Virus record (IMG/VR): IMGVR_UViG_3300048110_000435
Location: 1 to 34,681 of that record
Reading direction: 5' to 3' (one strand)
Source: a virus
Length of the DNA stretch: 34,681 nt
Shown: positions 3,318-34,298 of the stretch, piece after piece
How the letters are laid out: every line of letters starts with the position of its first letter
Numbering within the stretch: position 1 is the first letter of the stretch
The notes under the pieces: model-generated
Databases searched by the model: none
The model's input: the letters and a program-made list of their open reading frames with translations, nothing else
Told to the model about the DNA's origin: nothing
Made by a program: the position numbers and the translations under genes

Positions 3318-4523
3318 CTATCGAATAACATAACTCCCTTTGTTTGCATTTGCAAGGAAGTATTGAACTCCATAACGGAGGGAATCCATATGGTGATTCC
3401 ATTTATCTATTGGCCTTTCATTTCTACTATGCCATACATAATTGTTTAACTCCTTAATAAGTTCTAAAGAGTCAGGATCAATAATCAAATCATAATCCTG
3501 AATAAGTGCAATACCTGTTAAGATACTACCTTGTTTTTTTATTGCAGGTTTTACATTACAATATACCTTGAGCTCCTGGAGTAGTCTAGGTTCAGCACTA
3601 TCACATATTATAATATCTTCTTTAGCGTGTCTCCTATTGAGTTCACCAATCTCTTTAGTAGATAAACCTACCTTACAATACATAGTCTTTAACCACATCT
3701 TCTTCCTATCCCTATCTATAGCTACTTTAAGTAAAACTGTAGGGTCAACTGAAAACCCAAAATCCTGCCCAAATATATAAGGGGAATACTCATTAAAAGG
3801 TCCAACGGACCATCTAGTAAATACAACACCATCAGCCTTATCTAGCCATCCACCAAGTATCTGATGATTATATTTATCTGGCCTACGTCTACGAATCTCC
3901 TCTATCTGTAATAAGAATGAATCAGATAGATGTTCTAGGTTATCTTTGAATGTAGTATGCACATAAGTTACATTATCCTTCCAACCATTAAATCCACCAT
4001 TAACAGCTTTGGAGGCAAAGAACCTTTGATATATCCAATGCTCCTTTGTAGTAGGATTCAATATAAGTATAATCCTATTAGGTTTATTTTTAGCCCTTAC
4101 AGACTGATCTATTTTATCAAATGAATCCTCATCAACAAGTTCCTCTGCTTCATCCAATACAAACGTTGTAATACCTTGTAGAGACTTCAGGGCTGCAGTT
4201 TGATTACCTGCTGATGTTTTGATACCTTTAAATATAATAGAGCTCCCTGTGGACATATTTAGTATCTCATCTTTAGTTATCCTAAAATGTTCAGAGATAC
4301 CATACAACTCTATCTTTTCTATAAACTCTGGAATAATAGAAGTTGATGCTGAAGACATTGTATACCTGGTGAACAATATCTTATGCCCTTGCTCCATAGT
4401 TAGTAATGCCAAGAAGGAACCAATAGCAAAAGACTTACCACTACCTCGACCTCCGGTAACTACAAAGTACCTACTGTCATTACCTAATGCTTGATATTTA
4501 CTATTTAATTTCGGTGCGTTCAT
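3318..4523 (-). CDS. terL: Terminase large subunit
   Basis: Packaging motor ATPase and headful/cos nuclease. Walker A GGRGSGKS at residues 24-31. Walker B TTFVLDEAEEL in the N-terminal ATPase half, followed by a coupling motif region ILNPT. The C-terminal RNase-H-like nuclease shows acidic motifs FGQDFGFSVDPT, IICDSAEPR and HHMDSLRYGVQY. At 401 aa it is close to normal length for compact siphovirus TerL proteins. It is the distal gene of the replication operon, unusually far from portal and capsid genes on the linear map. A 7-bp hairpin (AGTGTAA/TTACACT, 3301-3319) overlaps the stop codon but has no T-run. The start overlaps a 55-aa gene by 23 bases. Confidence 0.95.
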   Translation of the reverse strand: MNAPKLNSKYQALGNDSRYFVVTGGRGSGKSFAIGSFLALLTMEQGHKILFTRYTMSSASTSIIPEFIEKIELYGISEHFRITKDEILNMSTGSSIIFKGIKTSAGNQTAALKSLQGITTFVLDEAEELVDEDSFDKIDQSVRAKNKPNRIILILNPTTKEHWIYQRFFASKAVNGGFNGWKDNVTYVHTTFKDNLEHLSDSFLLQIEEIRRRRPDKYNHQILGGWLDKADGVVFTRWSVGPFNEYSPYIFGQDFGFSVDPTVLLKVAIDRDRKKMWLKTMYCKVGLSTKEIGELNRRHAKEDIIICDSAEPRLLQELKVYCNVKPAIKKQGSILTGIALIQDYDLIIDPDSLELIKELNNYVWHSRNERPIDKWNHHMDSLRYGVQYFLANANKGSYVIR

Positions 4524-4668
4524 TTACTTTTATATAACCTGACCTTATACTAGCAGGTAGACCTTTACCATCAGGTTGATATCTATAACCTAATATTGGA
4601 TTGATTCCATAATTCCAAAAATCATATGGTATCTTTTTGACTAAATACTCTTCAGTATCTCTAGACAT
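4501..4668 (-). CDS. Small hypothetical protein, 55 aa, between terL and methyltransferase
   Basis: Starts MSRDTEEYLVKKIPYDFWNY and ends GYIKVNERTEIK. It bridges the 117-bp gap between the methyltransferase (overlap 28 bases) and terL (overlap 23 bases). Composition, with many aromatic and charged residues and a Gly/Pro-rich centre, looks like true protein rather than AT-rich noise. No family recognised. Position suggests a packaging or DNA-modification accessory role. Confidence 0.7.
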   Translation of the reverse strand: MSRDTEEYLVKKIPYDFWNYGINPILGYRYQPDGKGLPASIRSGYIKVNERTEIK

Positions 4669-5294
4669 AATTGTTCAGGTATTTTACTGCGTTCATAATT
4701 ATTCTTCATTCCTTGAGTTCCTTTACCTAGAGCTCCAGATTTTTTTTTAGCTGCATAACCTCTTGGCTGTTTGTCGTGATGACATTTATCATTACCATTA
4801 AAACATTCTGGTCTAGGTTGCCATCCATCAGGATTAATTAGATTCCTTATATTGTTACTCCATATGTCTGTTGGTTTTGCCCTATTCTCACCATACTTAC
4901 AATACCAAATAGTAGTCCTAGGTAATCCTTCCATAAAGAGTTGTTTCCTTAACATTCCCCTAGGATTCTCTATATACCAAAATCTAGGTTTTAACTCCCT
5001 GATGATCTGAATAGTCTTTTTAACTATTAAATCACTCTTCTTAGCGAAATCACTCATCTCTTTATTATGAGGTCTGTGATGAGATATTGCAGAAACTGAA
5101 TATGTTGTGCAAGGTGGAGAAGCCCATATTATATCAGGAGTAAAAGGAACTTTGTTTATATCAAAATCAAGTATATCAACAGCATAATCAATCCCTTCAA
5201 AATCATTTAGGTCCGAACTAAACACTTCATAACCTAAAGTTTCAGCAACCTTACCTATAGACCTACTACCTGCAAATAATTCTAGCACTTTCAT
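4641..5294 (-). CDS. DNA (cytosine-5) methyltransferase-like protein
   Basis: Predicted SAM-dependent modification of cytosine in phage DNA, plausibly protecting it from host restriction. Motif I LELFAGSRSIG at residues 4-14. Catalytic motif IV SPPC with C62. Motif VI-like ENP at 109-111. A conserved-looking RSKIPEQL near the C-terminus may serve as motif X. At 217 aa it is shorter than most C5 enzymes, so the target-recognition domain must be small. No restriction endonuclease lies nearby, so this is an orphan enzyme. It overlaps the candidate small-terminase stop by 4 bases (ATGA). Confidence 0.85.
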   Translation of the reverse strand: MKVLELFAGSRSIGKVAETLGYEVFSSDLNDFEGIDYAVDILDFDINKVPFTPDIIWASPPCTTYSVSAISHHRPHNKEMSDFAKKSDLIVKKTIQIIRELKPRFWYIENPRGMLRKQLFMEGLPRTTIWYCKYGENRAKPTDIWSNNIRNLINPDGWQPRPECFNGNDKCHHDKQPRGYAAKKKSGALGKGTQGMKNNYERSKIPEQLCLEILKSI

Positions 5295-32609: not shown

Positions 32610-33068
32610 TTATTTCTTTTGTTTTGGTATCTTTTTATCTAATTCTAATTCTAAATCTTTCAAGTAAGCAGCCTCTATTTCTTTAGTCATCTTAGGTTCT
32701 ATCTTATCTATAACGTCAAAGAATCTAACAGGTTGTATTCCACTCCTAGCTATGGACCTACCAATCAAAAAACCGAGCTGCCTAAGTGTTGGTGTTTTAC
32801 CACTCTTTAATGTTTTAGGCTTTATACCTTTTTTATTAATCCAATCTTCTATCTTTTGTCTTGGAGGAAACTTACCTGGCCTTCTTCCATCATTTACAAA
32901 AGCCCCATACTCATTCATTGAGATAGCGAACCCATCCTTGTTTGTTATTTTCCTAGCTGAAATACTCTTCTCTAAATCACTACCTGGTTTATTAAGTTGT
33001 CGCTTAAGTTCAGATACTACTATCTTCTTATAATTATCTAGGGCTTTCTTTGTAAACTTCTTTACCAT
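32610..33068 (-). CDS. HK97 gp10-like tail completion protein, 152 aa
   Basis: Start at 33068 (MVKKFTKKALDNYKKIVVSE) is preferred: the ATG overlaps the upstream stop as TAATG. An ATG six bases earlier is the alternative. The layout, with a helical basic N-terminus, a beta core around GAFVNDGRRPGKFPPRQKIE, then ARSGIQPVRFFDVIDKIEPK, fits the gp10 family that closes the head-tail interface. Confidence 0.8.
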   Translation of the reverse strand: MVKKFTKKALDNYKKIVVSELKRQLNKPGSDLEKSISARKITNKDGFAISMNEYGAFVNDGRRPGKFPPRQKIEDWINKKGIKPKTLKSGKTPTLRQLGFLIGRSIARSGIQPVRFFDVIDKIEPKMTKEIEAAYLKDLELELDKKIPKQKK

Positions 33069-33529
33069 TAGCAAATAGTGTGTTCTGTATTAGGCATTTC
33101 TATACTTATAGTTACAGCCCAACCTGCTAATTCATTTTCAAAGCTGTCTAATAATGGTGATGCTGTTATATCTGTGGTTAACTGAAGCTCATCTGTAAAT
33201 AAGGCACCCCTCCTTAATTCTTGTTGGATGTCATTAACAACCTGAAGTTGAGTGTTTAATGCATCTTGTAGATTATCATTACCGAATATTGAGTCTTCGT
33301 CTGATAGTTCGTTTGGTTTATCAACTATATCTAAACAAAACAATTGAATTGTAACTGTTACTATGTGACTAGAGAACACCACATCCCCCATTGATATATG
33401 AGATAGTGGATAAATAGTTGTCTTGTCAAGGTCCACTTCTAGAATATCCCCAAAAGTAACCTTATTGGTTATTCCGTTAGCTTTTAACTTCTCTTGTATT
33501 TTATCTATTATAGTATATACTTGTCTCAT
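33068..33529 (-). CDS. Tail terminator/completion-like protein, 153 aa
   Basis: Starts MRQVYTIIDKIQEKLKANGI. A ferredoxin-like alternation of helix and strand (SSHIVTVTIQLFCLDIVDKP and ELAGWAVTISIEMPNTEHTI) is the pattern of tail-terminator and Neck-type proteins. Its ATG overlaps the stop of the frameshifted chaperone product as ATGA (33526-33529). It lies between the chaperone and gp10-like genes. Confidence 0.7.
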   Translation of the reverse strand: MRQVYTIIDKIQEKLKANGITNKVTFGDILEVDLDKTTIYPLSHISMGDVVFSSHIVTVTIQLFCLDIVDKPNELSDEDSIFGNDNLQDALNTQLQVVNDIQQELRRGALFTDELQLTTDITASPLLDSFENELAGWAVTISIEMPNTEHTIC

Positions 33530-34298
33530 TTACTTTTTTGTTTTAACATCTTTGCTTCTAAATCATTTTTCTCCTTCTCAAACTCTAACCAGGTTAGACA
33601 TTCGGAAGCTGTGAGTTTCGTAACTTCTTTAAATTTTGTGATATCTCCTTTAGCGATTGCATATATTGATTGATACCATCCCCATTTTGCTCCAAATCCT
33701 TGATTGTTTCCTTGTCCTCCATCATCTTTTGGGTCAAAGAGTCCGCTAAATAACTCGACAAAACGTTCCCTAAACGATAAAAAAAAACAACTGAACCTAA
33801 AGCTACATTTACCGGTGCATCTTTCATTATTTCAGAGTACTTATCTGCACCTTCATAATCTTCTATAAGGTACAGCTCTCCTTTTCTAAACGTAACAGGT
33901 CTATACAGGACAGACATAGCTTTATGTATCTGTTGCCAATCACCAATATAATTATCTAAATCAACAAACTCCCCTAATGTTATATCATCTAACTTTGGTA
34001 TAAATCCAAATGTTATAGTATCACCATTTGGGTCTGTTAATGTGAAATCTCTTTGAAGAGGTGTCTCCTCCTTAAATAAAGTTACAATGTGGTTTATGAT
34101 AAAAGAAAATTCTGCCAGAGGTAAATTATATGCCTCCTTTAAATTGATCCCACAGAATATTTCTAGAACCTTTAGATTGATGAATTCAGTGTCCTCTGCA
34201 TCCTTATTATCATCCATAACCTTAAGGTATTTCTGATATTCTCTAAGTGGTATAGCGGACAGCTCCTTGGGTACTTCTATAGTGAATTTACTACTCAT
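33526..34298 (-). CDS. Tail assembly chaperone, -1 frameshift (GT-type) product, 257 aa
   Basis: Residues 1-173 are read in the zero frame (from 34298). Slippage at the nine-T run (33787-33779) moves to the -1 frame, giving 84 more residues: LSFRERFVELFSGLFDPKDD, a Gly/Gln linker, then AKWGWYQSIYAIAKGDITKF and ECLTWLEFEKEKN. That C-terminal block is typical of the T part of phage tail chaperones. The -1 frame has no start codon of its own, so the fusion is the likely route. It stops exactly at the next gene's ATG (ATGA) and fills the apparent 64-bp gap after the zero-frame stop. The chaperone binds the tape measure and recruits tail tube protein. Confidence 0.85.
33594..34298 (-). CDS. Tail assembly chaperone, zero-frame (G-type) product, 234 aa
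   Basis: Starts MSSKFTIEVPKELSAIPLRE and carries LKVLEIFCGINLKEAYNLPL and FGFIPKLDDITLGEFVDLDN, the usual helical chaperone domain. After the nine-T slippery run (residue 173) the unshifted ribosome makes 61 more residues ending NLKKLRNSQLPNV, which share DNA with the -1-frame product. First gene of the virion operon. Confidence 0.85.
   Translation of the reverse strand: MSSKFTIEVPKELSAIPLREYQKYLKVMDDNKDAEDTEFINLKVLEIFCGINLKEAYNLPLAEFSFIINHIVTLFKEETPLQRDFTLTDPNGDTITFGFIPKLDDITLGEFVDLDNYIGDWQQIHKAMSVLYRPVTFRKGELYLIEDYEGADKYSEIMKDAPVNVALGSVVFFYRLGNVLSSYLADSLTQKMMEDKETIKDLEQNGDGINQYMQSLKEISQNLKKLRNSQLPNV
33779..33787 (-). promoter_or_regulatory. Programmed -1 frameshift site (nine-T slippery run)
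   Basis: The minus strand reads GTT GTT TTT TTT TAT in the zero frame, a run of nine T that satisfies X-XXY-YYZ slippage. The -1 frame continues as TTA TCG TTT and stays open to the next gene. The shift raises length from 234 to 257 residues, and the new frame carries the conserved T domain. No stimulatory stem or upstream Shine-Dalgarno-like element was identified. Confidence 0.8.

Follow-up and report, generated by a model that had tools for sequence, protein, structure and literature searches.

A conserved run of at least nine T's joins two reading frames of a putative tail-assembly gene in probable Bacteroidota phages

Does a run of nine T's within a phage gene cause two proteins to be made from that gene, and is it the ribosome or the RNA polymerase that slips? 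This question is raised by the minus strand of IMG/VR record IMGVR_UViG_3300048110_000435, which was analyzed over its whole stretch of 34,681 nucleotides (here called the window). The 0-frame open reading frame (33594 to 34298), referred to here as G-like, begins with ATG and encodes 234 amino acids, with its last ~63 codons located 3' of the T run. The run itself (33779 to 33787) is read in the 0 frame as GTT TTT TTT TAT, includes an in-frame T_TTT_TTT, and is the sole run of at least nine T's on the minus strand of the window. No stop interrupts the -1 frame between 33831 and a TGA at 33528 to 33526. Its T-like region (33526 to 33786) has 86 codons plus the TGA, includes AKWGWYQSIYAIAKGDITKF and the FFLxFR and WGWYQS motifs, and overlaps the 0-frame tail of G from 33594 to 33786. 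Counted from the slip position at 33786, the 86 codons correspond to FF plus the 84 residues listed in a first-pass annotation of this DNA. The TGA shares bases, as ATGA, with the ATG at 33529 of the next gene (33068 to 33529), which encodes 153 amino acids. Of ATG, GTG, TTG, CTG, and ATT codons, the -1 frame has just one, the ATG at 33549. It precedes the stop by seven codons, so there is no candidate start for the T domain. The sequence statements of the first-pass annotation, namely, a T9 run within a 234-codon frame and a -1 frame that lacks a start for its core and ends on the next gene's ATG, were all correct to the base.

We queried IMG/VR for relatives of the -1 frame protein, using both the protein and its alignments, and ran separate searches for the 0-frame protein. 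Hundreds of IMG/VR contigs carry homologues with the conserved shifted frame (FFLxFR...WGWYxS), and the T frame keeps an identical relation to G in all relatives found. The family is deep, as the combined tree of G and T has a total length of ~59 amino acid substitutions per site, and all 69 G members scanned match phrog_32199. One scan of species genomes gave three Bacteroidota metagenome-assembled genome (MAG) contigs with homologues; no second genome with the gene was found among 395 genomes from the phylum of one MAG host. At 283 distinct sites, the T run is 9 (271 sites), 10 (11 sites), or 12 (1 site) nucleotides long. A chance origin is excluded, because essentially all copies of the gene in relatives have at least nine T's in a row, and such a run is nearly absent from the other genes of the same loci: among ~1,140 other predicted genes, 6 were listed with such a run, and 5 of these 6 are unflagged copies of this gene. 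Judged by this conservation, the recoding is real, conserved, and programmed. The first-pass proposal of a programmed -1 frame change by which the upstream frame gains a short downstream domain is thereby supported, its suggested check for conservation of the T run in relatives having come out in its favor, and its assignment to a Bacteroidota phage agrees with the identified hosts of the relatives, which are Bacteroidota.

Among cultured phages, P12024L and P12024S of Nonlabens carry homologues, with a 0-frame identity of 29%. Both halves are annotated there as independent hypothetical genes, gp40 and gp41 (PHROGs 32199 and 38404), although the site is again T9 with the same frame relation; the P12024L pair lies at NC_018272.1 23946-24640 (11989 to 12683 of our locus L082). 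In P12024L, the ATG annotated as the gp41 start overlaps the short 0 frame at its end, as would be expected if T were a separate gene with its own nonstandard or internal start, translated by coupling. However, the -1 frame upstream of this ATG (FFLSFRERLRDLYPELY) is conserved with the window and across the family, and together with the T9 run this argues that gp40 and gp41 of P12024L, and likewise of P12024S, are one recoded gene, with the annotated gp41 start lying inside the conserved -1 frame. A survey of start codons also speaks against a separate T gene: 174 of the 283 relatives lack any ATG, GTG, or TTG before WGWY, an ATG is present there in just 22, and the window has no ATG, GTG, TTG, CTG, or ATT before this motif. 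An independent start of T was rejected on this survey of relatives and window, and we consider it very improbable.

We additionally examined whether the 0 frame is maintained past the slip site. It stays open for a median of 63 codons, compared to 8 expected when the T-frame codons are redrawn synonymously, and 88% of the sites are individually unusual for this opening at p<0.05. At every level of divergence, fourfold-degenerate T-frame sites within the overlap vary about 1.4 to 2.9 times less than those 3' of it. The open 0 frame and the constrained T-frame sites indicate that both endings are selected and that the unshifted product carries a selected C-terminal tail. The Nonlabens clade is the exception, with a 0-frame tail of only 18 to 27 codons (27 in P12024L and P12024S). 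The +1 frame, in contrast to the -1 frame, is closed by a stop within 3 codons in 273 of 283 relatives, indicating that only the -1 frame yields a long product. In the window, a TAG two codons past the run (33770 to 33772) would terminate +1-shifted products of transcript or ribosome.

The first-pass annotation took the ribosome to be the slipping agent. Under -1 ribosomal frameshifting, two tRNA-Phe would slip one base back on T_TTT_TTT without stimulators and, as with lambda G/GT, in a few per cent of cases, and the T9 length would follow incidentally from the flanking codons. An in-frame T_TTT_TTT, which has the X_XXY_YYZ form of a slippery heptamer, is indeed present at all 283 sites, and the flanking T's are partly forced by hydrophobic or aromatic residues of both frames. 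To our knowledge, every characterized phage tail-chaperone shift is ribosomal, and lambda-type frameshift sites require no strong RNA structure. We found none here: over 160 diverse sites, the mean z for nested structures, the only kind scored, was 0.00 downstream (+5 to +55) and 0.02 upstream, not beyond shuffled sequence, and the window itself has no nested structure at the run (z of +1.58). A downstream stem-loop or upstream hairpin as a stimulator was rejected, as there was no signal in the 160 sites or the window. Such stimulators are common, though not obligatory, at ribosomal sites, and the lack of downstream structure counts against that mechanism.

The codon usage of the run bears more directly on the agent. 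In Escherichia coli, tetramers follow the order U_UU.C > U_UU.U and H_HH.U_UU.Y motifs are among the most efficient heptamers (PMC4066793), which is in favor of a ribosomal slip, as is the finding that known phage G/GT shifts are ribosomal (PMC5009743). However, since U_UUU_UUC is at least as shifty in E. coli as U_UUU_UUU (PMC4066793), a ribosomal site should tolerate TTC, and seven T's would suffice. Runs of 7 or 8 T's were found at 0 of the 283 distinct sites, and T_TTT_TTC without an upstream extension was likewise found at 0 of 283. Among the 268 T9 sites in phase 1, none has TTC at either Phe codon, both being TTT every time, and TTC makes up 25% of the Phe codons upstream in the same genes. 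A change from TTT to TTC at the second Phe would be silent in both frames (the T-frame Leu would go from TTA to CTA) and would leave T_TTT_TTC, a canonical ribosomal slip site. At sites that deviate 3' of the run, T's elsewhere hold the length at nine or more. Loci L046, L058, L108, and L151, whose 3' part is unusual, have 10 T's; L152, L188, and L189 read GCT TTT TTT TTC, with 9 T's in another phase; and in L046, L108, and L219, a TTC follows but T_TTT_TTT is retained one codon upstream.

What is conserved at all 283 sites is thus an uninterrupted run of about nine or more with a conserved length. In bacteria, RNA polymerase begins to slip efficiently on runs of nine A's or T's, and coding sequences begin to avoid runs of that length (PMC1088944; PMC5009743), and slippage-prone runs have been given as "Tn, n > 8" (PMC3711429). 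Transcriptional slippage needs just the run, and the run of at least nine, the absence of TTC, and the absence of structure therefore fit it better than they fit a ribosomal slip. The length constraint favors the RNA polymerase in this sense but is not proof. Any T9 run necessarily includes an in-frame T_TTT_TTT, so that sequence alone is always compatible with ribosomal slippage, which we regard as a serious but clearly less probable explanation. The first-pass claim of slippage at a pure T run is therefore upheld in that the run is conserved, whereas the ribosome as its agent is not favored, as the length, the lack of TTC, and the lack of structure fit transcription at least as well. Peptides across the VVFF-LSFRER join, which had been suggested as a check, would not tell the two mechanisms apart, because both yield an identical fusion.

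Homopolymer runs are also prone to replication slippage, and GT could in principle be toggled by phase variation, with the DNA run gaining or losing a T in some phage genomes. However, roughly 280 distinct genomic copies include no indel that would fuse the G and T frames, codon substitutions preserve the -1 relation where the run has 10 or 12 T's, and the 0-frame tail is maintained by selection. Phase variation by DNA indels was rejected for want of an in-frame variant among the ~280 copies, and it is the least credible of the explanations weighed here. Elsewhere in the window, a nine-A run (4740 to 4748) lies on the sense strand of a minus-strand gene, near its 3' end. This gene (4641 to 5294) is DNA methyltransferase-like; the run is slippage prone, and the shifted frames end within a few codons.

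The assignment to tail chaperones, also made in the first-pass annotation, is in keeping with the G/GT-like architecture; among known chaperones, one fold match gave a lead. No tail-assembly chaperone (TAC) family match for G or T was found in Pfam or PHROGs, and a sequence search of the PDB gave no match to a chaperone. The AlphaFold (AF2) model of G is confident to about residue 180 (mean pLDDT of 87.5), and that of the T domain is helical (mean pLDDT of 75.6). Compared with PDB chains, G matched the HK97 tail chaperone 2ob9 with a Z of 3.5 over 66 residues, tied with the unrelated 6vek; filing G by this fold match was rejected as too weak. A PDB fold search with T returned nothing. A role as a tail-assembly chaperone is a plausible best guess from architecture.

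In BFVD, several proteins of uncultured phages, 226 to 267 amino acids long, match the folds of both G and T in one chain; A0A516L611, A0A6J5N0W0, A0A516L5A8, and A0A6J7WJY4 (243 to 267 amino acids) are examples. These modeled single-chain proteins are likely unshifted GT proteins. They support G and T being parts of a single protein and suggest that some relatives need no shift. Homologues with a T domain that has an independent start or no T run, named in the first-pass annotation as a contrary result, were not found by sequence; the fold matches, however, suggest that more distant relatives have both parts in one open reading frame. Flavobacterium phage 6H gp10 (L406, 10352 to 10927) has a G-like GEYxD...YR motif and a fold match and sits a few genes before the tape-measure gene. 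It lacks a T run, and a stop closes its -1 frame immediately. The unannotated gap of ~300 bases after it (L406, 10047 to 10352) has open stretches in other frames and no T9 run.

The gene neighborhood provides a tail-module context. The 153-amino-acid gene is located downstream of G/T in 275 of 282 relatives and is followed by a gene weakly similar to the HK97-gp10/tail-completion family (32610 to 33074 on the minus strand of the window, a weak Neck1 match). The order in the window is G/T, the 153-amino-acid gene, the HK97-gp10-like gene, three long genes, and a tape-measure candidate assigned by eye, which G/T does not adjoin. The terL gene is located just upstream of G in 172 relatives; the window and its nearest relatives do not share this arrangement. 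In the window, terL (3318 to 4523) lies at the opposite end of the structural module, in contrast to loci such as L082 and L075.

The best explanation, to which we give a probability of roughly 60%, is that one gene gives rise to G and GT via the T9 run by RNA polymerase slippage and that the two products have lambda-like roles. The products would share a start, with G being the 234-residue 0-frame product and GT, of about 257 amino acids, exchanging the last 63 residues of G for the 84-residue helical T domain of the -1 frame, and the switch would occur at the T9 run. Most likely, RNA polymerase slips on the run, so that part of the mRNA has one extra U (or two fewer), and ordinary translation of the slipped mRNA would read into T; the opposite error, into the +1 frame, would end within about three codons. 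By analogy with lambda gpG/gpGT, G would be a tail-assembly chaperone, and GT, present at a set ratio, would recruit tail-tube subunits to the tape measure. That a widespread clade of Bacteroidota phages sets its ratio of tail-assembly proteins by host RNA polymerase slippage, in place of ribosomal frameshifting, on an obligatory run of at least nine T's, and in addition has a selected alternative tail on G whose codons share their bases with the T domain, we hold to be only marginally favored.

For tailed phages, G/GT recoding is treated as the model case of a conserved ribosomal frameshift. The gene described here resembles lambda G/GT, and the HK97-type arrangement, in that a short open reading frame is followed by an overlapping -1 extension, conserved in relatives, that adds a small domain without its own start. 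As in lambda, two products with a common N terminus are expected from a tail-gene module, here in a group of phages with cultured flavobacterial members. However, lambda-type sites are heptamers such as G_GGA_AAG, whereas the slip here is placed at a T run whose length is invariably nine or more. The gene also differs in that the unshifted product has its own selected tail of ~63 residues, in that there is no detectable sequence similarity to TAC families, and in that it often follows terL rather than adjoining the tape-measure gene.

Transcriptional slippage at nine A's or T's, as in mxiE and spa13 of the Shigella type III secretion system, Thermus dnaX, and insertion sequence (IS) elements, shares with this gene an uninterrupted homopolymer of at least nine at a conserved frame change and no need for RNA structure. 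Those cases are bacterial genes and IS elements, whereas this putative case is a phage gene, and no phage tail-chaperone example of transcriptional slippage was found in the open-access literature searched. If our reading is true, a clade of hundreds whose site is locked at nine or more T's would show that a G/GT-type arrangement can be built by transcriptional slippage. The closest comparison is with gp40 and gp41 of Nonlabens phages P12024L and P12024S, which are direct homologues of both halves and share the T9 run and frame relation but differ in their two-gene annotation, 27-codon 0-frame tail, and position directly after terL. Since the gene is split even in these cultured phages, a run of at least nine T's, a -1 frame, and a WGWY domain may serve as a rule for gene callers.
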